A DNA stretch of 64,000 nucleotides from Stutzerimonas sp. S1 (GTDB lineage Bacteria > Pseudomonadota > Gammaproteobacteria > Pseudomonadales > Pseudomonadaceae), in contig NZ_JAOEIY010000007.1 of NCBI RefSeq assembly GCF_025966695.1, positions 138,918-202,917 on the forward strand. Direction: 5' to 3'. Below, in pieces: positions 1 through 14,245 of the stretch. Position 1 is the first letter of the stretch; the number at the start of each line of letters is the position of its first letter. Both the position numbers and the translations under genes were made by a program. Below the pieces are notes generated by a model that saw only the letters and a program-made list of their open reading frames with translations, was not told where the DNA came from and made no database searches.

Positions 1-1456
1 CCTCGAGGTCGAACTCTATGTCCTCCAGGCTGAGCTTGCCCGAGCCGATGCGGGCGTAGTCGAGGATGTCGTTGATCACCGTCATCAGGGAGTTGCCGGA
101 ACTGGTGATGGTGTCCAGATAGAAGCGCTGGTTGCGATCCAGCGGCGTCTCGCGCAGCAGTTGCAACATGCCTAGCACACCGTTTAGCGGCGTGCGGATC
201 TCGTGACTCATCTTGGCGAGGAAACGGCTCTTGGCCTCGTTTTCGCTGTGCGCCTGTTCGGCGGCCTGGCGGGAGCGGAAGCCTTCCTCCTTGAGTCGGT
301 TGATGCGATCGGCCAGCCCCAGTGACAGGGTGATCAGCTCGAAGGACACGGCGGCCTTGACCACCGAGGCGCCATACAGCCCGAGCAGCTCGAAACCCAG
401 CGAGCCGGCTGTGACGATGACGAAGGACGCCAGCAGTACGCCCCAGGCGAGGGTGTAGTAGAGCCCGTAGCGAACACCGTGGCGCCAGACGAAGGCGCCG
501 GTCGCCAGCAGACCGATGGAGGTGATGATCACTGTGATGCTGGCGAGGATGCTCCAGACATGCATGCTCAGCACTGCGCAGGAAGCGAAGCTGGCGAGCG
601 CCGCCAGCAGGGCCAGACGCAACCCGCGGTCCAGTCGTGGGAAGTGTTCGCGGGTATGCAGGAAGTGTCGGCTGAACTGGATCGCCACCAGGCAGTGGCT
701 GAACATCAGTGCGTACACGCCGACCGACGATAGCGCGCCGTTGTCGGCCAGCCATTTGACCAGCATGCCGTCGAACGCGAGGGCGAACAGACCAACATTG
801 AGGTTGTAGATCAGGTACCAGAAATAGGCCGGTTCGCGCAGCGAGGCGAACAGGAACAGGTTGTAGCAGAACATCGCGAACAGCACGCCGTAGAACGCCC
901 CGCTGAACCCGAGCAGTTCCTCCTGAGCGGCGGCGCTGGCGGCGTAACTGCTGAAGTACAGCGGCACGTAGAGCGTGCTGCTGGTTTTCAGGCGCAACAG
1001 CAGCGTCGTGTCGCCGGCTGCCAGCTCGACCGGGAACCAGAAGTCGGCGACCTTTACCGGCCGCTGGCTGAACGGATAACTGTCACCCGATAGCTGGCGA
1101 CTCAGGCTGCCGTCCGGGTGGCGCAGGTAGAGTTCGATGTGGTCGAGCAGCGGATAGTTGATCTCGATGAAACCGCCGAGCGCTTCGGCCAGACGGTTGT
1201 CCAGTTGCACCCGCAACCACCAGGTCGAATCGTTCTTGCCCTTGTTGACGTGGCGGCCGGTCAGGCGCTGAAAGCGCTCTTCCGGCAGCGTAAGCACCTC
1301 GTCGACGCTCAATTCGCCGTTCGGGTCTTCCAGATAATAGGTGTGGCTACCGAGCGCCTGGCGCGCGTCGGTCGATTCCAGCGCGGCAGGCACGAATGCC
1401 CAGGCCTGGGCCGACAGGCAGTAGAGCAGAATCGCCAGGCAGAGACGCGGCAACAT
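1..1456 (-). CDS. 7TM-DISM sensor histidine kinase, N-terminal part (runs off left edge)
   Basis: Inner-membrane sensor kinase; 485 residues are visible and the C-terminus lies outside the window. Residues 1-20 look like a signal peptide ([20 protein letters not shown]). A periplasmic domain of the 7TMR-DISMED2 type follows to about residue 170, then a block of membrane helices (7TMR-DISM), then a HisKA dimerisation domain with H-box [17 protein letters not shown], phospho-acceptor His418. RetS and LadS of Pseudomonas share this plan, often with receiver domains at the C-terminus, which cannot be seen here. It lies downstream of the NAGGN osmoprotectant genes on the same strand, separated by 192 bases. 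From memory, P. aeruginosa has a hybrid kinase at the same place. A role in osmotic sensing is inference. Start ATG at 1456 is chosen because the signal peptide begins there. Confidence 0.88.
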
Positions 1457-1648
1457 GGTCGGGTTCCGGGAGCAGTGCAGCAGAAAAAGCTGAAAGGCGG
1501 TCAACAGGTCGGGGAGCGTTTCTGGGTTCCTTCCCCAAAGGCCCTGGCTCGGGCCATCCATTGTGCCGCGCGGTTGCGGCGCTATCTTTGCCTAGGTACA
1601 ACGCGGGCGGCAACCCTGGCTTCGCCGAAGCTGGGAAGCCGTCACGCG

Positions 1649-2848
1649 TCATTGCGCGCGCTCGTCGGCATTGCGTCCGATCAGCGAGTCCACCGCCGGT
1701 ACGCGGGTATCGTTCTCCATCTGCGCATCGTGTTCCAACTGATGACTGAAGCGCTCCAGTGAATCCTCGGTGTGCTGAGCGTCGCTGGCGAATACTGGCG
1801 GGCTCAGCATATAGCCGCACAGCAGGCGACTCAGCGCCGCGAGGCTGTCGATGTGGGTGCGTTCGTAGCCGTGGGTGGCGTCGCAGCCGAAGGCCAGCAG
1901 CGCGGTGCGGATATCGTGGCCGGCCTCGATCGCCGACTGGGCGTCGCTGTGGTAGTAGCGGAACAGGTCGCGGCGTACCGGGATCTCGTGTTCACCGGCC
2001 AGCTTGAGCAGGTGGCGCGAGAGGTGGAAGTCATAGGGGCCACCGGAGTCCTGCATGGCCACGGTCACCGCGTGTTCGCTCGATGCCTGGCCCTTGGCTG
2101 CCGGTGCGATGTCGATGCCGACGAATTCGCTGACGTCCCAGGGCAGGGCGCCGGCGGCGCCGGAGCCGGTTTCTTCGGTGATGGTGAACAGCGGGTGGCA
2201 GTCGATCGGGGGTTCGCGGCCGCTCTCGACGATTGCCTTGAGGGCAGCGAGCAGGGCGGCGACGCCGGCCTTGTCATCCAGATGGCGCGCGCTGATGTAG
2301 CCGCTCTCGGTGAATTCGGGCATCGGATCGAAGGCGACGAAATCGCCAATGTTGACCCCCAGCGCGCAGGTTTCGTTGTGGCTGTAGGTGTAGGCATCGA
2401 GGCGCAGTTCGACATGGTCCCAGCTCACCGGCGCTTCATCCACCGCCGTGTTGAAGGCATGTCCGGAGGCCAGCAACGGCAGCACGCTGCCACGGATCAC
2501 GCCGGTATCGGTGAAGACGCTGACCCGGCTGCCTTCGGCGAAGCGGCTCGACCAGCATCCCACCGGTGCCAGCCCTAGGCGCCCACTGGGGTGGATTTCG
2601 CGAACGATCGCGCCGATGGTGTCGAGATGTGCCGCCACCGCACGATCCGGGCTGTAGCGGCGGCCCTTGAGGGTGGCGCGGATGGTGCCGCGGCGGGTCA
2701 GCTCGAAGGGGATGCCGATCTCCTTCAGGCGTTCGGCGACGTAGCGCACGATGGTGTCGGTGAAGCCGGTGGGGCTGGGAATGGCGAGCATTTCCAGCAG
2801 CACCCGCTGCAGGTAGTTGAGGTCGGGTTCAGGCATTTTCGCAGTCAT
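1649..2848 (-). CDS. NAGGN-system M42-family peptidase/hydrolase
   Basis: Predicted cytosolic metallopeptidase of the M42 aminopeptidase/glucanase type, 399 residues. Metal-site motifs are visible: AVAAHLDTIGA (about residues 75-85), RHLDDKAGVAALL, ITEETGSGAAGAL with the catalytic Glu pair, VGIDIAP, and a late YYHSDAQSAIEAGHD. It is the third member of the conserved osmoprotectant trio with ngg and asnO; its reaction in NAGGN metabolism is not established to my knowledge, and turnover of the dipeptide is a guess. The reading frame continues upstream, but ATG 2848 (MTAKMPEP) is where family similarity begins; the upstream part is a shadow of ngg. The C-terminal 45 residues are polar and look like a lineage-specific tail. 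Confidence 0.88.
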   Translation of the reverse strand: MTAKMPEPDLNYLQRVLLEMLAIPSPTGFTDTIVRYVAERLKEIGIPFELTRRGTIRATLKGRRYSPDRAVAAHLDTIGAIVREIHPSGRLGLAPVGCWSSRFAEGSRVSVFTDTGVIRGSVLPLLASGHAFNTAVDEAPVSWDHVELRLDAYTYSHNETCALGVNIGDFVAFDPMPEFTESGYISARHLDDKAGVAALLAALKAIVESGREPPIDCHPLFTITEETGSGAAGALPWDVSEFVGIDIAPAAKGQASSEHAVTVAMQDSGGPYDFHLSRHLLKLAGEHEIPVRRDLFRYYHSDAQSAIEAGHDIRTALLAFGCDATHGYERTHIDSLAALSRLLCGYMLSPPVFASDAQHTEDSLERFSHQLEHDAQMENDTRVPAVDSLIGRNADERAQ

Positions 2849-2933
2849 GAATGCTCCCGTCGGTGGCCGCTTGCGGCCGGGTGGATGCCGGAGCCGTGCC
2901 AGACCCGAGGCCGGCGGGCGGCGTGGGGTCGGT

Positions 2934-4676
2934 TCAGCCGGCGTTCTGGCTGAGCGGGAAAAGCAGGTCGATGAAACGCTCGGCGGTCGGCTGCGGCTGA
3001 TGATTGGCCAGCCCGACCCGCTCGTTGGCCTCGATGAACACGTAGTCCGCCGAATCCGCAGCAGACACCAGCAGATCCAGCCCCACCACCGGAATGTCCA
3101 GCGCCCGGGCGGCGCGCACGGCGGCCTCCGCCAGTTCCGGATGCAGCTGCGCGGTGACATCTTCCAGCGTGCCACCGGTGTGCAGGTTGGCGGTACGGCG
3201 CACCGCCAGCCGCATGCCCTGTTCCAGCACGCTGTCGAACTCGAGTCCGGCGTCGCGCACGCAGCGCAGGGTTTCGTCATCCAGCGGAATCCGGCTTTCG
3301 CCGCCGGTAGCCGCCTGGCGCCGGCGGCTCTGCGCTTCGATCAGCGCGCCGATGCTGTTGCGCCCGTCGCCGATCACCTCGGCCGGGCGGCGGATCGCGG
3401 CGGCCACGACCTCGTAGCCGATGACCACGATGCGCAGGTCCAGGCCGGGATGGAAGCTTTCCAGCAGCACCCGGCTGTCGAACTGACGGGCGCGGCGGAT
3501 CGCCTCTTCCACGTCCTCGGCGCTGCGCAGGTCGACGGCCACGCCCTGGCCTTGCTCGCCATCCACGGGCTTGACGACCACGCTGCCATGCTCGGCGAGG
3601 AAAGCGGCGTTGTCGGCGGCGTTGCCGGCCAACTGCTGGGCTGGCAGGCGGATGCCGGCGCGGGCGAGGGTGCGGTGGGTCAGTTGCTTGTCCTGGCAGA
3701 GGGTCATGCTCACGGCGGAGGTGAGGTCCGACAGCGATTCGCGACAACGGACCCGCCGGCCGCCCTGGGTGAGGGTGAACAGCCCGGCTTCGGCATCGTC
3801 GATGACAATCTCGATGCCGCGTCGGCGGGCTTCGTCGACGATGATCCGTGCGTAGGGGTTGAGCGTGGCTTCGGGGCCGGGGCCAAGAAACAGCGGCTGG
3901 TTGAAGCTGTTCTTGCGCTTGACGGTGAAGGTCGGAAGGTCGCGAAAACCGAGTTTGGCGTACAGCGCCTTCGCCTGCTGGTTGTCGTGCAGTACCGAGA
4001 GATCGAGATAGGCCAGCCCGCGGCTCATGAAATGTTCGATCAGATGGCGTACCAGCGCTTCGCCCACACCGGGTCGCGGGCAACTGGGGGAAACTGCCAG
4101 GCACCAGAGGCTCGAGCCGTGTTCCGGATCGTTGAAAGCCTTGTGATGGTCGATGCCCATCACACTGCCGATGATCTGTCCGGAGCTTTCGTCCTCGGCA
4201 ATCCAGTACACCGGGCCGCCTTCCTCGCGCGGCGTGCAGCGTTCCGGGTCCACCGGCATCATGCCGCGCGACTGGTAGAGGCCGTTGATCGCCTGCCAGT
4301 CGGCATCGTTTTGCGCACGTCGTACGCCGAAGCCGCGCACGCTCTTGCGCGCCGGGCGGTAGTCGGTGAACCAGATGCGCAGCGTATCCGAGGGGTCGAG
4401 GAACAGCTGCTGCGGTGCATGCGCGAGCACCTGGTGTGGCGCGGCGACATACAGCGCGATGTCGCGCTCGCCGGCCTGTTCGTTGAGCAGGTCGGCCGCC
4501 AGCCGCGCCGGGTCGGCATAGGTGTGCCCGATGAGGATGCGTCCCCAGCCGCAATTCAGCGTGACTGGCCCGCTCGGCTCGCTCTGCCCGTCCTCGGCGA
4601 AGCGTGCCTGCAGACGCTGGTAAGTCGGAGATTGCCCGCGCAACAGGCGCTGACCATAGGCTTGAGACTTCTGCAT
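2934..4676 (-). CDS. ngg: N-acetylglutaminylglutamine synthetase (GNAT-ATP-grasp fusion)
   Basis: Makes the dipeptide N-acetylglutaminylglutamine, precursor of the osmolyte NAGGN. The 580-residue protein has an N-terminal region of about 115 residues, then a GNAT acetyltransferase domain (about 118-270, with ALYAKLGFRDLPTF near its end), then an ATP-grasp ligase domain (about 285-580) with VVVKPVDGEQGQGV, the glycine-rich loop region, and the Mg-binding end VFIEANERVGLANH. The last part resembles cyanophycin synthetase. The fusion explains both chemistries: acetylation of Gln and ATP-dependent joining of a second Gln. It sits between asnO (93 bases upstream) and the M42 peptidase (85 bases downstream), all in one direction, so co-transcription is likely. 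ATG 4676 begins MQKSQAYGQRLL. Confidence 0.93.
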   Translation of the reverse strand: MQKSQAYGQRLLRGQSPTYQRLQARFAEDGQSEPSGPVTLNCGWGRILIGHTYADPARLAADLLNEQAGERDIALYVAAPHQVLAHAPQQLFLDPSDTLRIWFTDYRPARKSVRGFGVRRAQNDADWQAINGLYQSRGMMPVDPERCTPREEGGPVYWIAEDESSGQIIGSVMGIDHHKAFNDPEHGSSLWCLAVSPSCPRPGVGEALVRHLIEHFMSRGLAYLDLSVLHDNQQAKALYAKLGFRDLPTFTVKRKNSFNQPLFLGPGPEATLNPYARIIVDEARRRGIEIVIDDAEAGLFTLTQGGRRVRCRESLSDLTSAVSMTLCQDKQLTHRTLARAGIRLPAQQLAGNAADNAAFLAEHGSVVVKPVDGEQGQGVAVDLRSAEDVEEAIRRARQFDSRVLLESFHPGLDLRIVVIGYEVVAAAIRRPAEVIGDGRNSIGALIEAQSRRRQAATGGESRIPLDDETLRCVRDAGLEFDSVLEQGMRLAVRRTANLHTGGTLEDVTAQLHPELAEAAVRAARALDIPVVGLDLLVSAADSADYVFIEANERVGLANHQPQPTAERFIDLLFPLSQNAG

Positions 4677-4769
4677 GGTGCGTTCCTTGAGGCGTTGGTC
4701 ACGACCCTGGCGGCGCAGCGAGGCGCCGACCCGATTGCCGCGTGCCGGTGCGGCGGGTCGTGAGCGTTC

Positions 4770-6542
4770 TTAGAGGCCCTGTTCGCTCAACCAAAGGTTG
4801 ACCGCCGCCAGTTGCCAGAGTTTTGAGCCGCGTAGCGGTGTGAGCTGGCCGTCCGGGTCGGCCAGCAGCCGTTCGATCGCCTCGGGGCGGTAGAGTCCGC
4901 GATCCTGGCTGGGGTCGAGCAGCAGCTCGCGCACCCAGTGCAGTGTTTCGCCCTGCAGGTGCTTGAGCCCCGGCACGGGGAAATAGCCCTTGGGCCGATC
5001 GATTACCGCCGCCGGAATAACCCGACGCGCGGCTTCCTTGAGCACATACTTGCCACCCTCGGGGAGCTTGTAGCGGGCCGGAATGCGCGCCGATAGCTCG
5101 GCCACCCGGTAGTCGAGGAACGGCGTGCGCGCCTCCAGCCCCCAGGCCATGGTCATGTTGTCCACCCGCTTGACCGGGTCGTCGACCAGCATCACCGTGC
5201 TGTCGATGCGGAGCGCCTTGTCCACCGCGGCGTCGGCGCCGGGCTCAGCGAAGTGCTGGCGGACGAAGTCGGCGGAGAAGTCACCCTGCAGCCAGCGCTC
5301 CTGCATCAGCGCGCGATATTCGTCGTAGTCGCGATCGCGGAAGGCAGTGAGATAGGCCGCCACCGGATCGGCAGCGCCGTCCACCTGTGGATACCAGTGG
5401 TAGCCGGCGAATAGTTCGTCAGCGCCCTGGCCGCTCTGCACCACCTTGCAATGCCTGGCCACTTCCCGCGAGAGCAGGTAGAAGGCGATGCAGTCGTGGC
5501 TGACCATCGGCTCGCTCATGGCCCGGAAGGCCGCCGGCAGCCGTTCGAGGATTTCCTTTTCCTGGATGCGCAGCTGGTGATGGCGGGTGTTGTAATGCCG
5601 GGCGATCAGGTCCGAGTACTTGAATTCGTCGCCGCGCTCACCGCCGGCATCCTGGAAGCCGATGGAAAAGGTCAGCAGGTTGTCGCCGACGCCCGCTTCG
5701 CGTAGCAGGCCGACCAGCAGGCTGGAGTCGACGCCGCCGGAGAGCAGTACCCCGACGTCCACCGCAGCGCGCTGCCGAATGGCCACGGCCTCGCGCAGGG
5801 TGTCGAGGGTGCGTTGCTGCCAGTCCTCGAAGCTGTAGTCCTGCTCGTCCTCGCGCGCGCCGTACTCCAGTTGCCACCAGCGCTGCCGGGTGGTGACGCC
5901 CTGAGCGTCGATGCGCATCCAGCTGGCCGGCGGCAGTTTCTCGATGCCGGCGATGAGGGTGTCCGGTGCGGGCACCACGGCATGGAAACTCATGTAGTGG
6001 TTGAGCGCCACGGGATTCAGCTCGCCGGCGATATCGCCACCCTGCAGCAGCGCCGGCAGCGTGGAGGCGAAGCGCAGGCGCTGCCCGGTACGCGACAGGT
6101 ACAGCGGTTTGACGCCGAGACGGTCGCGGGCGATGAACAGTTGCTGGCTGTCGCGCTCCCAGATGGCGAAGGCGAACATGCCGTTGAGGCGCGGCAGCAG
6201 CGCCTCGCGCCAGGCGTGAAAGCCCTTGAGCAGTACCTCGGTGTCGCCGTCGGAAAAGAAGCGATAACCCAGGCCTTCCAGTTCGGCGCGCAGCTCCGGG
6301 TAGTTGTAGATGGCGCCGTTGAAGACCATCGACAGGCCAAGCGCCGAGTCGATCATCGGCTGCCCGGACGCCTCGCACAGATCCATGATCTTCAGGCGTC
6401 GGTGGCCGAGGGCCAGCGGGCCCTGGCTATGGAAGCCGCATGCGTCCGGGCCGCGCGCGGTCAGGTGTTGGGTGATGCGTTCAATCGCGGCCAGATCGGC
6501 CGGTTGGTTATCGAAACGAAGTTCTCCAGCTATGCCACACAT
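4770..6542 (-). CDS. asnO: N-acetylglutaminylglutamine amidotransferase (asparagine synthase family)
   Basis: Converts the C-terminal carboxylate of N-acetylglutaminylglutamine to the amide, giving the compatible solute NAGGN. The 590-residue protein begins MCGIAGE, so Cys2 is the nucleophile of a class II glutaminase domain (residues 1 to about 200). The synthetase domain follows, with the PP-loop SGGVDSS at 268-274 and SGQGADELFAGYHWY further on. This is the asparagine synthase B plan, but the neighbourhood (ngg and the M42 peptidase) identifies it as the NAGGN trio member and not housekeeping AsnB. An AAGGAA ribosome site lies just before ATG 6542. It is first in the operon, with a possible AlgU-type promoter at 6574-6601. 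Confidence 0.92.
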   Translation of the reverse strand: MCGIAGELRFDNQPADLAAIERITQHLTARGPDACGFHSQGPLALGHRRLKIMDLCEASGQPMIDSALGLSMVFNGAIYNYPELRAELEGLGYRFFSDGDTEVLLKGFHAWREALLPRLNGMFAFAIWERDSQQLFIARDRLGVKPLYLSRTGQRLRFASTLPALLQGGDIAGELNPVALNHYMSFHAVVPAPDTLIAGIEKLPPASWMRIDAQGVTTRQRWWQLEYGAREDEQDYSFEDWQQRTLDTLREAVAIRQRAAVDVGVLLSGGVDSSLLVGLLREAGVGDNLLTFSIGFQDAGGERGDEFKYSDLIARHYNTRHHQLRIQEKEILERLPAAFRAMSEPMVSHDCIAFYLLSREVARHCKVVQSGQGADELFAGYHWYPQVDGAADPVAAYLTAFRDRDYDEYRALMQERWLQGDFSADFVRQHFAEPGADAAVDKALRIDSTVMLVDDPVKRVDNMTMAWGLEARTPFLDYRVAELSARIPARYKLPEGGKYVLKEAARRVIPAAVIDRPKGYFPVPGLKHLQGETLHWVRELLLDPSQDRGLYRPEAIERLLADPDGQLTPLRGSKLWQLAAVNLWLSEQGL

Positions 6543-6573
6543 AAGTTCCTTACCGGTTGGTGCCGTTGGGGTG

Positions 6574-6601
6574 TGTGACTGGCGGGTCTCCCGTGAAGTT
6601 C
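6574..6601 (-). promoter_or_regulatory. Possible AlgU/RpoE-type promoter of the NAGGN operon
   Basis: On the minus strand a perfect GAACTT (6601 to 6596) is followed after 17 bases by TCACA (6578 to 6574), 31 bases before the asnO start codon. The Pseudomonas AlgU consensus is GAACTT, 16-17 bases, then TCtga. The -35 half is exact and the -10 half is partial. AlgU responds to envelope and osmotic stress, which fits the product of the operon. This is a match by eye. Confidence 0.45.
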
Positions 6602-6648: not shown

Positions 6649-7503
6649 CTACAAGCGGAAACCTTCGACGATATAGTCGGCCAGTGTCTCGCTCACCGGC
6701 GACTGGCTGCGCGGGTTGCGCAGCAGCACGATGCTGCATTGCGGCAGGGCAGGCAGGCCCTCGGCCTCGCCAAGGATGCGCAGCTCCGGCGCGATCAGAC
6801 TGTGCAGCTGGGCCGTCACGGCCAACCCGGCGCCGACCAGTGCCATGATCGCCGCCAGGCTGGGGCTGGTATAGGCGATGCGATAGTCGATGTCCGCTGC
6901 ATCCAGCGCATTGCATACCCAGGCGCGGCAGAAGCAGCCGTTGTTGAACATCGCTAGCGGGATCGGCCGCTGCTGGTGCAGGTCGAAACCGGCAGCCTCG
7001 GCCCAGACGAAGCGCTCCTGGCGTAGCAACTGGCCGATCTCGGTGCCGGGCTCGCGCGTGACGATCGTCAGGTCGAGATCCTGACGCTGCAGCAGCTGGC
7101 TGGAGGGTTCGCAGTGCAGCTCGACCTGCACCAGCGGGTAGGCCTGGGCGAATCGGGCAAGGATGCCGGGCAGGAAGCGCATCACGTAGTCATCCGGCGT
7201 ACCGATGCGTACCGCGCCGACCATGTGCGGCTGGCGCAGCGTGGTCATCACCTCACCATGCAGTTTGAGGATGCGCCGCGCATAGCCGAGCAGTACCTGC
7301 CCTTCGGCCGTCAGGCGTACCTGCCGGCCGCTTCGTTCGAACAGCGGTCGTTGCAGCACGTCCTCTTCCAGCCGCTTCATCTGCATGCTGATGGCCGACT
7401 GGGTGCGGTTGACCGCATCCGCCGCGCGGGTGAAACCGCCGTGATCGGCGATGGCGACGAAACTGCGCAGCAGTTCGGTATCGATGCCGGGGTAGCTGGC
7501 CAA
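6649..7503 (-). CDS. LysR-family transcriptional regulator
   Basis: DNA-binding regulator of 284 residues. The N-terminal winged helix (about 8-67) contains LLRSFVAIADHGGFTRAAD and RTQSAISMQMKRLEEDV, followed by a linker helix and a periplasmic-binding-protein-like effector domain (about 90-284). The start is TTG at 7503: two in-frame TGA codons immediately precede it, the next in-frame ATG is inside the helix-turn-helix, and GGAGA lies upstream at a suitable distance. It is divergent from the DUF1127 gene, with 97 bases between. The effector and targets cannot be read from the sequence; regulation of the adjacent DUF1127 gene is a reasonable guess. Confidence 0.9.
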   Translation of the reverse strand: MASYPGIDTELLRSFVAIADHGGFTRAADAVNRTQSAISMQMKRLEEDVLQRPLFERSGRQVRLTAEGQVLLGYARRILKLHGEVMTTLRQPHMVGAVRIGTPDDYVMRFLPGILARFAQAYPLVQVELHCEPSSQLLQRQDLDLTIVTREPGTEIGQLLRQERFVWAEAAGFDLHQQRPIPLAMFNNGCFCRAWVCNALDAADIDYRIAYTSPSLAAIMALVGAGLAVTAQLHSLIAPELRILGEAEGLPALPQCSIVLLRNPRSQSPVSETLADYIVEGFRL

Positions 7504-7838: not shown

Positions 7839-8594
7839 TCAGTGCCCGAGCAACAGTTTCTGTACACCCAGCGACAGGCTGACGGCTACCAGCATCAGTG
7901 CGAACAGCCGTTGCAGCACGCTGCTGTTGAGGTACTGCGCGAGGCGGTTGCCAGCGAGCACACCGCAGGCGCCGCCGGTGGCCAGTCCGCCGAGCAGGGC
8001 CAGCGGTGGCTGTGCATCGCTGAGGTAGAGGAAGAAGCCGCCACCGCTGACCAGGGCGATCACCGCCATCGAAGTGGCCATCGCGCTCAGCAGTGACAGT
8101 GGCGTGAACCAGAGCAGCGCCGGGACGACGAGAAAGCCGCCGCCCACGCCCATTAACCCGGAGAGCAGACCGACCCCGAGGCCGATTGCGACCAGTGCGC
8201 CGTGCCGTACTTCGGCATTTTCCCGCGCCGGTAGGCTGGCTCCGCGCCACATGCGCCACGCGGACCAGAGCACCAGCAGGCAGAACGCGATGATTAGCGC
8301 CTTTTCCGCAATGAACTCGCCAAGCCACTGGCCGGCGGCATTGCCCGGCAGGCCACAGATGGCCAGCAGTAATACCGGCTTCCATGCGACCTGGCGCTGA
8401 AATGCACGGGGGATCGCACCGATCAGCGCCGACATCGCGACGGCGCCGAGGCTGACGCCGATGGCGTCGCGCAGCGGCAGATGCAGGCTGAGCAGCAAAG
8501 GCAGGGCGACCAGCGAGCCGCCGGCGCCGGTCAGGCCGAGCAACAGGCCGAGCACCAGGCCGATGCCGAGTGCTTCGAGCAGCAATGCTTCCAT
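7839..8594 (-). CDS. TauE/SafE-family membrane permease
   Basis: Integral inner-membrane protein of 251 residues with about eight hydrophobic helices. The two repeats typical of TauE/SafE (DUF81) transporters are visible: GLLLGLTGAGGSLVALPLLL near the N-terminus and VGLLSGLMGVGGGFLVVPAL in the middle. Family members are proposed to export sulfite, sulfonates or related organic anions. The substrate here is unknown. It is convergent with the DUF1127 gene and lies downstream of the haem-c protein on the same strand, 121 bases apart, so a link to sulfur or redox chemistry is possible but only inferred. Confidence 0.88.
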   Translation of the reverse strand: MEALLLEALGIGLVLGLLLGLTGAGGSLVALPLLLSLHLPLRDAIGVSLGAVAMSALIGAIPRAFQRQVAWKPVLLLAICGLPGNAAGQWLGEFIAEKALIIAFCLLVLWSAWRMWRGASLPARENAEVRHGALVAIGLGVGLLSGLMGVGGGFLVVPALLWFTPLSLLSAMATSMAVIALVSGGGFFLYLSDAQPPLALLGGLATGGACGVLAGNRLAQYLNSSVLQRLFALMLVAVSLSLGVQKLLLGH

Positions 8595-9400: not shown

Positions 9401-11380
9401 TCAGCCGCCGCGGACGAGCTTGCGTAGCAGGAAGCGATTGGGGTGGCAGGCTTCGGCCACTTCCCGCGGCAGCGGCAGCGGTTCGCCATTCAGCCAGGCC
9501 GCCAGCAGTTCTCCCGACAGTAACGTGGTGATCATCCCGCGCGAGCCGTGTGCCGTATTGACATACAGACCGTCCAGCCAAGGGCAGGGAGCATCCGGTG
9601 TTCGCCGGGCGTTCTTGCCCAGCTCGGCATAGGTGCTGGCGAAACCTTCGGCGTCGGCCAACGGACCGACCAGCGGCAGGTAGTCCGGGCTGGTGCAGCG
9701 CATCGCCACGCGCCCGGCAAGGCTGGCGGCGGTGCTCGGATCGGCCTGCAGGCGTTGGTAGAGATCGGTCGAGACGCCGGCGAGCTGTTCAAGGTTGGAC
9801 AGATGTTCGGCTTCGCTCGGCGCGGCGTCGGTCTGCTGGAAGTTGAAGCTGGCACCCAGGGTGTGCACACCGTTACGTGCGGGCGCGACATAGCCTTTGG
9901 CGCACAGCACGGTGCGCAGCTGGGCGCTGGCCTCGGTGGCCGGCAGGCAGGTGATCTGCCCGCGGATGCGCTTGAGCGGCAGCCAGTCGCACTGGCTGAA
10001 GGCTGCCGCATCGGCGGCGCCGGCGAGCACCACCACGGGCGCCTCGACCAGCACTTGGCCGGCGCAGAGTGCCTGCCACTGTTCGCCATCGCGCTGCAGT
10101 TCGAGCACGTCGCGATGGCGTAGCAATTCGATGTTCGGTTGCGCCAGCAGCCAGCGGCAGACCGCAGGCGGGTGGGCCCAGCCAGCGTCCGGATAGAACA
10201 GGCCGCCGGCCGGCAGCGCCACACCGGCGAGCTGTTCGGCGTCGCGCTGCGCGAGCGCGTGCACCAGATCGGCAGGGAAGGCCGCCGCCAGCTCTTCCTG
10301 GCGCTCGCGTTCGCTGTCGTCATAGGCGATCTGCAGTACGCCGCAGGCATCCCAGTCCTGACCCTGTTGCAGATGACGCAGCAGCCGGCGGGTGTAGCCG
10401 AAACCACTGACCACCAGTCGCGACAGCGCCGTGCCGTGCGCTGACAGCTTGAGATAGAGCACGCCCTGCGGGTTGCCGGATCCTTCTTCGGCGGGCGCCG
10501 CGTGGCGCTCCAGGACCGTAACATGCCATCCGCGTGCCGCCAGGCTGGCGGCACTGGCGCAGCCGGCGAGCCCGGCGCCGATGACCAGCGCGCGGCGCTG
10601 TCGCGGCTGGAAGTCCGGGCGTGCATACCAGGGCTTCGACGTGATCGCCGGCGTGCCGATAAAGCGCCCACGCAGGATTTCGCGCTTATGGCCGAAGCCC
10701 GGTACGCGCTGCATGTCGAAGCCGGCCTCGCCCAGGCCGCGGCGGACGAAGCCGGCACTGGTGAAGGTGCCGAGCGTCGCGCCCGGGGCCGAGAGGCGGG
10801 CCAGCTCGGCGAACAGCGAGGGTTGCCACATGCCCGGGTTCTTCGCTGGGGCGAAGCCATCGAGGAACCAGGCGTCGACCCGTGCGTCCAGGCTCGGCAG
10901 GCAATCCTGCACATCGCCGACCAGCAGCGTCAGCACTACCCGGCCGCCGGCGAAGACCAGCTGCTGGAAGCCCGGGTGAATCGCCAGATATTGCTCCAGC
11001 AGTTGCTCTGCCTGCGTATGCAGCTGCGGCCATAGCGCCAGCGCCCGCGCGAGGTCGGCACGGGTCAGCGGATGTTTCTCGACGCTGACGAAATGCAGGC
11101 GTGCGCCGGAGGGCGCGACCTCGTCGAACAGCTGCCAGGCACAGAGGAAGTTCAGACCAGTGCCGAAGCCGGTTTCGCCGATCACCAGATGTCGGTCGGC
11201 GGCAAGCTCGGCGAAGCGGCGCTGCAGATCGTTCTGCGCGAGAAACACGTGCTGCGTTTCCGCCAGCCCCGAAGCGCGGGAGAAGTACACGTCACCATAG
11301 TGACGTGATTGCGGCTGACCGTTGTCGTCCCAGTCGAGTTCGGCGTGCTGGAAGTCGGGCGTTGCGGGGCGATCTGACAT
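9401..11380 (-). CDS. mnmC: Bifunctional tRNA wobble-uridine modification enzyme MnmC
   Basis: Completes 5-methylaminomethyl-2-thiouridine at the wobble position of several tRNAs. The 659-residue protein has an N-terminal SAM-dependent methyltransferase (MnmC2, residues 1 to about 240; GETGFGTGLNFLCAWQLF) and a C-terminal FAD-dependent oxidoreductase (MnmC1, from about 265; VIGAGLAGCASAASLAARG), which removes the carboxymethyl group. Length and domain order are those of the fused gammaproteobacterial enzyme. ATG 11380 begins MSDRPATPDFQHAELDWDD, as in family members. It lies 66 bases downstream of gacS on the same strand; read-through is possible, but no functional link is known. Confidence 0.95.
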   Translation of the reverse strand: MSDRPATPDFQHAELDWDDNGQPQSRHYGDVYFSRASGLAETQHVFLAQNDLQRRFAELAADRHLVIGETGFGTGLNFLCAWQLFDEVAPSGARLHFVSVEKHPLTRADLARALALWPQLHTQAEQLLEQYLAIHPGFQQLVFAGGRVVLTLLVGDVQDCLPSLDARVDAWFLDGFAPAKNPGMWQPSLFAELARLSAPGATLGTFTSAGFVRRGLGEAGFDMQRVPGFGHKREILRGRFIGTPAITSKPWYARPDFQPRQRRALVIGAGLAGCASAASLAARGWHVTVLERHAAPAEEGSGNPQGVLYLKLSAHGTALSRLVVSGFGYTRRLLRHLQQGQDWDACGVLQIAYDDSERERQEELAAAFPADLVHALAQRDAEQLAGVALPAGGLFYPDAGWAHPPAVCRWLLAQPNIELLRHRDVLELQRDGEQWQALCAGQVLVEAPVVVLAGAADAAAFSQCDWLPLKRIRGQITCLPATEASAQLRTVLCAKGYVAPARNGVHTLGASFNFQQTDAAPSEAEHLSNLEQLAGVSTDLYQRLQADPSTAASLAGRVAMRCTSPDYLPLVGPLADAEGFASTYAELGKNARRTPDAPCPWLDGLYVNTAHGSRGMITTLLSGELLAAWLNGEPLPLPREVAEACHPNRFLLRKLVRGG

Positions 11381-11446: not shown

Positions 11447-14245
11447 TCAGCTGGCGATGTGCGCCGCGCGGCTCAGGCGCTCGATGGCGGCATCCAGCTC
11501 GTCGAGCGCGGCCTCGGCATCCGGGCTGTTCTGCTTGAGCAGCGTCTCGCTCTGCTGGCAGACATTGCGCAGCTGCGGGACACCGCAGTAGCGGGTGGCA
11601 CCGTGCAGGCGGTGCACGCGTTCGATCTGCAGCTGGCGGTCGCCGGACTGCCGTGCCTGTCGAATCGCCACGCGATCGTCGTCCAGCGAGCCGAGCAGCA
11701 TGCTCAGCAGTTCGGCAGCGAGATCGGCCTTGCCGGCGGCGAGGCGCAGGCCTTCCTCCTCGTCGAGTATTGGGAAGATCTGCTCCAGCGTCGGCGTCGG
11801 CGCCGGCAGCGCCGCGGGGCGGGATGGCGCCGGGGCAACCTGCTGCGGCAGCGCGGCGGGCTGGCTGCGCAGAATCAGGCCAGTCCACTTCAATACCACC
11901 TGCGCCAGCTGACGCTCGCTGATGGGTTTGGTCAGGTAGTCGTCGAGTCCGGCCTGCAGCAGCGCGCGTTTCTCGTTGGCCAGCGCATGGGCGGTGAGGG
12001 CGACGATCGGCAGCGGCGTGCTGCCCGTGCTGCTTTCCCACTGGCGAATTGCTTCGGTGGTCTGGCGGCCGTCCATGCCGGGCATCTGCACGTCCATCAG
12101 CACCAGATCGAAGGCGCGTTGCTTGACGGCCTCCAGCGCATCGGGACCGTTATCCACCGCAACGACCTCGGCGCCAAGATCGCTGAGCAGGGTCTCCACC
12201 AGCAGCAGGTTGGCCGGGTTGTCGTCCACGCAGAGCAGGCGCGGGGGGCGGCCGCTGGCTGGTTGGAGCGGCGCGGCAAGCACCTGCAGCGGGCGTACCA
12301 ATTCGAGCAGAACGCGCTGCAGCTTGCGCGTGCAGGCGGGCTTGCCTTGTAGCTGGGCGTGCGTGTGGCTGTCCGGCAGCGCGTCGCTGAACAGCGGCTG
12401 CTCGGTGGTCGGGCAGAGCACCACACACTTGCAACCCAGTGCCTCGAACTCGTGCAAACGTTCGCCGAGTTGCGCCGGCGCGAGTTCGCGGGTGGTGATG
12501 CCGAGCACGGCCAGGTCGATCGGCGCATCGCTGTCGCGCAGGGCGGCGATGCTCGTCTGCATCTGTTCCAGGCTGTCGAAGCACTGCACGCTGAGGCCGC
12601 AGCTCTCCAGTTGATGCTGCAGTGCCTGGCGCGCCAGCGGATGCTGCTCGAGCAGAGCAACACGACGCTCCAGCAGGGCGATGTGCGGGTGGTCCTCGAT
12701 GTCGTCGCGCGCCTTCGGCAGGCTCAGGGTGATCCAGAACTCCGAGCCTTCCTCGGGAATGCTGTCGACACCGATCTCGCCTCCCATCTGCTCGATCAGT
12801 CGCTTGGAGATCACCAGGCCCAACCCCGTGCCGCCCGGTTGACGCGACAGCGAGTTGTCGGCCTGGCTGAAGGCCTGGAACAGCGCACGCAGATCCTGGT
12901 CGGTGAGGCCGATGCCGGTGTCCTGCACGCTGATGCGCAGCTGCGCACGCTCGGCGCTTTCTTCCTCGACCATCGCGCGCACCGCGATGGTGCCTTCGTT
13001 GGTGAACTTGATGGCGTTGCTGACCAGGTTGGTCAGCACCTGCTTGAGACGCTGCGGGTCGCCGACCAGCGACAGCGGGGTGTCGCGGTAGACCAGGCTG
13101 ACCAACTCCAGCTGTTTGGTGTGCGCGGCGGGGGCGAGAAGGGTCAGGGTGTCTTCGATCAGGTCGCGCAGGTTGAACGGCACGCTGTCGAGCACCAGCT
13201 TGCCGGCCTCGATCTTCGAGAAGTCGAGGATCTCGTTGATGATGCCCAGCAGGTTGTCGGCGGACTTCTCGATGGTCGACAGATAATCCTGCTGGCGCGG
13301 GGTCAGGTCGCTCTTCTGCAGCAGATGGGTGAAGCCGAGGATACCGTTGAGCGGGGTACGGATCTCGTGGCTCATGTTGGCGAGGAACTCGGACTTGATC
13401 CGGCTGGCTTCCAGCGCCTCCTTGCGTGCCAGATCCAGCTCGATGTTCTGGATCTCGATGGTCTCCAGGTTCTGCTGCACGTCCGCGGTAGCCTGGTCGA
13501 TGCTCTGTTGCAGCTCTTCACGGGCGCTGAGCAGCGCCTCGGCCATGCGGTTGATGCCCGAGGCCAGTTCGTCCATCTCGTGGCTGCCCAGCGACGGCAG
13601 GCGGGTTTCCAGATGGCCGTCCTTGAGCTGGGCGACGGCGAGCTGAACGCGCTGCAGCGGCTGGCTGATGGTGCGGCTCATGCGCAGTGCGAGCAGGGCG
13701 GTGATGATCAGGCCGGCACCCACCAGTAGCAGACTGGTGAACAGGCTGCGATAGCCGCGCAGCAGCGTGCCGTGGTGCGACAGCTCCAGCTCGAGCCAGC
13801 CGATCAGCTCGCGGCCGTCGTTGCGTGCTTCCTCGCCGAGATTCAGGTCCTGGTGCAGCACCGGCATGAGAATGCGCGTGGTATCCAGGCTGCTGACCCG
13901 GGTCAGGCCTTCCGGATCGCCGGGCGGCGAGGGAGTGAGCATCTTCGGTCCGACGTGGACCCGCGGGTTGCGCTCGGCGTCGAGAATGGTCACCGCGCGG
14001 ACATCGTTCTGGTCGAGTACTTGGGCGAGAATGCGCTGCAGGCGCTTGTCGTAGCCGAGGCTCATTGCTGGCGCCGCCAGCGGCGCCAGCTGTTCGGCGA
14101 TCAGCACGCCGCGCTCGTCGAGCTGGTGGCGCATCTCGGAGAGCTGCATCCAGGTGAAGTAGGCACCCAGTGCAATGGCCAGCAGGGTGCTTGGCAGCAA
14201 CGTGAGTACCAGCACGCGGCCTCTGATTCCTAGGTCTTTCAGCAC
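11447..14245 (-). CDS. gacS: Hybrid sensor kinase GacS (BarA type)
   Basis: Global regulator kinase that phosphorylates GacA and so controls the RsmY/RsmZ small RNAs. The 932-residue protein has a transmembrane helix at about 10-30, a periplasmic region, a second helix at about 168-188, HAMP, then HisKA with His293 ([14 protein letters not shown]), an HATPase domain (QDTGIGL, GGTGLGL), a degenerate receiver-like stretch, a true receiver with Asp718 ([12 protein letters not shown]), and a C-terminal Hpt domain with His878 ([14 protein letters not shown]). All phosphorelay residues are present. The start is GTG at 14245, where the family N-terminus [11 protein letters not shown] begins. RetS-type 7TM-DISM kinases modulate GacS in P. 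aeruginosa; one of that architecture lies at the left end of the window. Confidence 0.96.

Follow-up and report, generated by a model that had tools for sequence, protein, structure and literature searches.

Does a sensor kinase encoded directly behind osmoprotectant genes control those genes, or does it feed another regulatory system and only share their site? The question arises at one end of a 64,000-nucleotide stretch of DNA from Stutzerimonas sp. S1 (G000:C20:138918-202917, hereafter the window), where a 7TM-DISM hybrid histidine kinase is located directly downstream, on the same strand, of the asnO, ngg and M42 peptidase genes of the N-acetylglutaminylglutamine amide (NAGGN) system. The arrangement, seen in the window and in the flanking DNA of L004 into which the kinase frame was extended, is as a preliminary description had it. 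That description also took the linkage to be conserved, assigned to the kinase the control of compatible-solute synthesis in answer to osmotic or cell-wall cues, and asked whether a RetS-like architecture implies cross-talk with GacS. The comparisons reported here make an additional input to the general GacS network more likely than a dedicated NAGGN switch, because relatives keep either module without the other. On balance, and judging from sequence, we favour the view that this hybrid kinase would serve the GacS multikinase network in an accessory role, adjoining the NAGGN genes without being dedicated to them. The GacS half of the earlier question is the better supported one, and the NAGGN-control half has been weakened.

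The family, Pseudomonadaceae by its named members, was sampled in 148 genomes, and the counts are not corrected for descent. Kinase orthologs were defined by a sensor match of at least 331 bits, the next class reaching at most 182 bits. Some sensor match at E 1e-10 occurred in 109 of the 148 genomes, an ortholog in 61 and ngg above its cut-off in 103. Both genes were present in 51 genomes, the kinase only in 10, ngg only in 52 and neither in 35; that is, the kinase is missing from 52 of 103 ngg carriers and ngg from 10 of 61 kinase carriers, and the kinase does not follow the trio wherever the trio is found.

Maps of 74 loci from 69 genomes placed the usual site of the kinase and the NAGGN genes between mnmC, which we take to be a tRNA modification gene, and cynX/SDR/SSS genes. 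In genus g5 the kinase is positioned directly behind mnmC, with no NAGGN genes beside it, in nine of nine kinase loci (in the g5 genomes G058 and G066 ngg is located elsewhere), and G033 of genus g17 is arranged likewise. Along the g5 and g19 branches the kinase follows mnmC or TauE and the trio is not beside it; in several relatives without NAGGN genes next to the kinase, mnmC is the gene directly upstream. The G127 locus consists of mnmC, TauE, a peptidase remnant (residues 257-388) and the kinase. The NAGGN trio in turn occupies the same site without the kinase, for example in G008, G071 and G088, and neither module is there in G100, G061 and G124. Two genomes carry more than one ngg locus: in G011 the copy at the kinase locus (L117, G011:C1:1182231-1183851) is split over two frames and an intact second copy lies at 2.67 Mb, and in G028 both loci are intact.

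A kinase tree (FastTree, midpoint-rooted, 105 of 125 rows, 20 rows identical in the compared stretch having been dropped) showed eight changes in the presence of NAGGN genes beside the kinase, one separating g5 plus g19 from all other rows and seven at single tips; with a midpoint root, gain and loss of this neighbourhood are not distinguishable. At three of these tips (G063, L212 and L227) the kinase is preceded by the dacB-type gene that relatives have before asnO. Given this common flank, the seven tips may correspond to five to seven events. G063 seems to stand for an event of its own, as its dacB shares about 97% identity with that of NAGGN-bearing neighbours.

Kinases with no NAGGN genes beside them are near full length and keep all seven phosphorelay residues, except that of G105, whose frame is broken (512 amino acids). 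Across the tree rows these residues are invariant where letters are present (H453 in 104 of 105 rows, the others in 103 of 105, the remainder being gaps). Pairwise ratios of nonsynonymous to synonymous substitution rates (dN/dS) came to 0.13-0.14 for three g5 kinase pairs whose genomes have no ngg. For eight pairs that set a kinase lacking adjacent NAGGN genes against one that has them, covering all seven tips but L233, they ranged over 0.05-0.22; for seven pairs in which both kinases have NAGGN genes alongside, the range was 0.07-0.24. A pairwise value is an average over the two lineages, which makes the g5 pairs the cleaner test. The low ratios and the residues kept without NAGGN indicate, therefore, that the kinase is under selection without NAGGN. 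Control of compatible-solute synthesis, as first proposed, agrees poorly with so many ngg carriers that have no kinase and with kinases that stay constrained where ngg is missing; dissociation, tree, residues and dN/dS together lowered direct NAGGN control as the main role of the kinase.

Within the family the linkage is genuine, without being universal or obligatory. In 48 of the 51 genomes with both, the kinase is downstream of the NAGGN genes on the same strand; in three the two are apart, and linkage was found in eight of 19 sampled genera. Among the named relatives, taken as the best 80 of 165 and thus biased to close ones, NAGGN genes are directly upstream of the kinase in 75 and not in five; two of the 75 (L199 and L225) are cut by contig ends and were scored as NAGGN-bearing from the M42, or the ngg and M42, that they still contain. 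The gap between the peptidase stop and the kinase start is 61-593 nucleotides in 32 linked family loci, except in G007 (3.2 kb). It amounts to 61-63 nucleotides in several loci of genus g12 and, in the window, to 192 nucleotides from Met-36 or 87 from the first ATG.

Outside the family, ngg was found in 12 of 194 genomes of the order sample, 10 of 321 of the class sample (including G573, a partial match below the cut-off) and 20 of 349 of the phylum sample. The sensor search gave no kinase ortholog in any of these 42 ngg-positive genomes; 15 of them contain remote DISM proteins, of which the best matched at 168.5 bits (29%) and none lies next to ngg. No ortholog outside the family was found among the 194 order genomes either, where the best non-family match had 169.6 bits and 30% identity. 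In 20 loci read for a kinase beside NAGGN genes outside the family, the only hybrid-kinase-like match was at L088, on the opposite strand. The window shares its three gene families with the NAGGN osmoprotectant system at large (TIGR03103, TIGR03104 and TIGR03106) but, judging from those 42 genomes, not the kinase. The conservation claimed earlier stands for eight genera of one family and fails beyond it, an outcome that the preliminary description had itself named as speaking against its proposal. DISM sensors as such can be numerous elsewhere: G211, of the same order and outside the family, has 38 DISM-sensor matches at E 1e-5, unusually many for one genome, and its family, f28, has further genomes with many first-look candidates.

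The kinship of the kinase was approached through its domains, its sensor and its relay modules. The whole frame (L004:9606-12479, minus strand) encodes 957 amino acids; codons 1-520, identified by open reading frame and Pfam, lie at 1-1561 on the minus strand and are cut by the window edge. Translation likely starts at Met-36 (position 1456), judged by eye from the signal-peptide-like N-terminus. DISMED2 (72-204), 7TM (219-419), HisKA (443-508), HATPase_c (555-670) and one receiver (822-937) all score above the Pfam cut-offs, which places the protein in the 7TMR-DISM hybrid histidine kinase class, and Pfam detected no histidine phosphotransfer (Hpt) domain in it. The two best named relatives are Stutzerimonas kinases of 85-86% identity. 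Within the genome, the proteins closest to the kinase are RetS (L166, matched by the RetS chains of the PDB at 357 bits), the DISM kinase L167, which lacks a receiver, and GacS. Comparison of the sensor with the PDB gave the RetS periplasmic domain as best match, by sequence (E 1e-5) as well as by predicted structure (Z 15.4, root-mean-square deviation 2.6 over 133 residues; predicted local distance difference test 82.8, predicted template modelling score 0.65), which supports a RetS-like sensor. RetS and the kinase have in common DISMED2, 7TM, HisKA, HATPase and receiver domains and 30-31% identity over most of their length, and the second RetS receiver is the closest to the kinase receiver. 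They differ in that RetS has two Pfam receivers, where the kinase has one and so departs from the RetS layout, and is a separate gene of the same genome (L166); their sensors are 22% identical. LadS is also a DISM sensor kinase, and L167, which we name LadS-like, is the closest sensor in the genome (34%), but it is a separate gene of 670 amino acids without receiver. This gene (L167:1426-3435, G000:C11) resembles in its lack of a receiver the P. syringae LadS as given in the available part of PMC11330419.

In a receiver tree of the own genome, the kinase receiver groups with the second RetS receiver (support 98/95) and then with GacS and the hybrid kinase L169, whose branching is not separated (86/87). 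A catalytic-core tree places the kinase in a 15-row group with GacS, RetS, L169 and L175 (85/94). Both the catalytic and the receiver domains are thus related to those of GacS and RetS, with core support that is moderate and a core group that takes in L169 and L175 as well. The stretch from ATPase to receiver matched the corresponding GacS region weakly (42% probability), and three receivers at 0.2-11%. Thirteen Hpt matches occur in the genome: in GacS, in a lone 136-amino-acid frame, in L169 and, for the others, in frames of 599-2381 amino acids.

Two kinases from the literature may belong here. In P. aeruginosa the NAGGN genes are PA3459-PA3461, repressed by the divergent MarR protein PA3458 (PMC8070244, available sections), and the main text of that source, as far as available, does not name PA3462. 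The hybrid kinase PA3462 is numbered next after these genes, in keeping with the earlier remark that P. aeruginosa has the same arrangement; the likeness is one of gene numbering, not of sequence. Extracts of PMC2246019 describe PA3462 as a sensor/response-regulator hybrid with a colony variant in strain TBCF10839 and wild type in PAO1, and this is a thin phenotype literature for a close comparison; its signal is listed as unknown in extracts of PMC5812489 and PMC10333789. It has been named as a likely part of the GacS network (PMC8175716), and this prediction, together with the receiver and core trees, makes the question of GacS cross-talk pertinent. The second kinase is HrgS (Avin_34990) of A. 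vinelandii, a species that lacks ladS; HrgS is a hybrid kinase functionally related to GacS and is described as not reported in Pseudomonas (PMC11330419, in the part available). In an A. vinelandii-like genome of the sample (G056) the nifH-family genes number three, as expected for that species, and one of them contains an in-frame stop. This genome carries a kinase ortholog at 3.573 Mb behind asnO-ngg-M42. Between 3.45 and 3.67 Mb this ortholog is the only gene found with both kinase and receiver matches, the others being one lone receiver match and one kinase without receiver match. By interpolation of locus tags, Avin_34990 would be expected near 3.54 Mb, on a scale that puts RetS about 29 kb off its place (RetS tag from PMC11330419). 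Judged by position, not by sequence, HrgS probably belongs to the same group as the window kinase.

In the mechanism that we propose, the RetS-type periplasmic jelly-roll and the seven-helix bundle would sense an envelope or extracellular cue. The kinase would autophosphorylate on H453 and pass the phosphate to D872 of its receiver, both residues being conserved. As the kinase has no Hpt, one in trans would be needed: most likely that of GacS, in the manner of LadS, for which an H1 to D1 to GacS H2 relay is described in the accessible part of PMC4866733, or else a lone HptB-like Hpt. The relay would thereby tune GacA/Rsm output, including the Rsm RNAs. In its place behind the NAGGN genes the kinase would share an address with them, which partial co-transcription or a common stress physiology may maintain.

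Several observations weigh against this proposal. The presence of the kinase and that of ngg are associated across the 148 genomes, a figure uncorrected for descent. At the seven tips, ngg is absent genome-wide in three (G033, G063 and G127), and L212, L214, L227 and L233 inform on the locus only, three of these (L212, L227 and L233) being metagenome-assembled genomes; pairwise dN/dS proves little for recent losses. Long-branch warnings apply to the receiver and core trees, where RetS is one of the long rows, and the root of both is a midpoint; the identity of HrgS relies on an interpolated map position. Finally, 12 of the 48 linked genomes (two on short contigs) keep the kinase-NAGGN pair with no mnmC within 12 kb, so the pair is fairly cohesive and leaves room for a functional tie. 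That cohesion, the order and strand common to 48 of 51 genomes, and the 61-63-nucleotide gaps in g12 are what one would expect if the kinase sensed osmotic or wall stress and controlled NAGGN synthesis directly or through a further response regulator. We regard such control as unlikely, considering the dissociation of the two modules and that no linkage was found outside the family. Among eight proteins scanned around the locus, moreover, a response-regulator domain occurs only in the kinase and GacS, and asnO has here an AlgU-like element of its own, while the P. aeruginosa operon answers to PA3458 (PMC8070244, available sections).

At the other extreme, the two modules might share no more than a changeable mnmC-cynX/SDR/SSS site, the kinase having a role related neither to NAGGN nor to GacS. 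Either module alone at the site, genomes with neither there, and the g5 and g19 branches fit this picture; the pair persisting away from mnmC, the clustering of receiver and core with RetS and GacS, and the published prediction for PA3462 do not, and we hold it to be improbable. The kinase could also feed the HptB branch and not GacS itself. In favour are the place of its receiver next to the second RetS receiver, the ability of HptB to interact with RetS (PMC11330419) and the lone Hpt frame of the genome. Its catalytic core, however, is grouped no less with GacS than with RetS, and we consider this route very doubtful. Returning to the GacS-network reading, a bolder form of it would see in the PA3462/HrgS group an overlooked, family-wide arm of the network installed at the NAGGN locus: water or envelope stress would drive NAGGN synthesis and Gac/Rsm output together by co-transcription from the asnO stress promoter, and solute synthesis would raise the dose of a GacS-input kinase. 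We give this form little credence, about as little as the shared-site picture.

If the favoured reading is true, a further input kinase, widespread in Pseudomonadaceae, would be added to the GacS network, the inputs of which have long been in question. It would also join the literatures on PA3462, HrgS and the NAGGN operon, among which literature searches showed no connection; no paper was found that treats 7TMR-DISM, Pseudomonas and osmotic together. Conserved adjacency, here common and with either partner kept without the other, calls for caution when function is deduced from it alone.

The remaining genes of the locus are all on the minus strand. NAGGN proteins and the GacS-like kinase were scored against curated NCBIfam/TIGR cut-offs, and domains were assigned by Pfam. 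The M42-family peptidase (1649-2848, ATG at 2848 or 2836; TIGR03106, 571 bits, cut-off 398), ngg, the N-acetylglutaminylglutamine synthetase with GNAT and ATP-grasp domains (2934-4676; TIGR03103, 913 bits, cut-off 569), and asnO, the amidotransferase (4770-6542; TIGR03104, 965.7 bits, cut-off 570), are adjacent and each above its cut-off, as members of the NAGGN system. Further upstream lie a TauE/SafE permease (7839-8594; Pfam and locus maps), which flanks the site in many relatives, and mnmC (9401-11380), with DAO and Methyltransf_30 domains. At 11447-14245 a GacS/BarA-type unorthodox kinase, a candidate partner, was found where GacS had been announced, with sCache_4, HAMP, HisKA, HATPase, receiver and Hpt domains; it scores 817 bits against the BarA model, under the cut-off of 890. 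Its nearness to the NAGGN locus was not used as evidence, because it is not seen in the mapped loci of relatives: the GacS probe had no match in the best 80 of 165 relatives or in the other mapped loci, many of whose left flanks are too short.

Transcription of the locus could link the two modules in part. In the window between 1300 and 1900, the kinase strand has no sigma-70 promoter-like site and no terminator; the opposite strand has one terminator-like site, where shuffles give 0.5. An AlgU-like promoter of the kinase itself was rejected (0 of 125 kinase upstreams, 0.4 expected). Before asnO, an AlgU/sigma-E-like promoter, GAACTT-N17-TCACA, lies at 6574-6601 (minus strand) by pattern search; the pattern occurs in 32 of 134 asnO upstreams against 0.7 expected from mononucleotide shuffles, mainly in the genus of the window. 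Read-through from asnO could, on this sequence pattern, raise the kinase level under stress. Adjoining the asnO start, comparison of upstreams revealed a near-invariant leader, CCCCAACGG...CCGGTAAGGA (6547-6571, minus strand), which is possibly involved in translational control; CCCCAACGG is present in 101 of 115 unique family upstreams (250 nucleotides) and in 0 of 19 outside the family (60 nucleotides). A structured leader was discarded, the 63-nucleotide fold being weaker than shuffles (z 1.72). In other genera (e.g. L133, L244 and L126) a dyad-like motif, CTTTGACNTGAAA, is found in 39 of the 115 unique upstreams, with 0.0 expected, and could be the operator of a repressor of the MarR type, of which PA3458 is an example. 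Directly upstream of asnO in the window is a LysR-type regulator (6649-7503, minus strand; Pfam), LrhA-like at 206 bits against an NCBIfam cut-off of 530, and such a gene has this position only in part of the loci of genus g1 (Stutzerimonas). The local regulator seems to have been swapped between lineages, a same-strand LysR here and a divergent MarR in P. aeruginosa.

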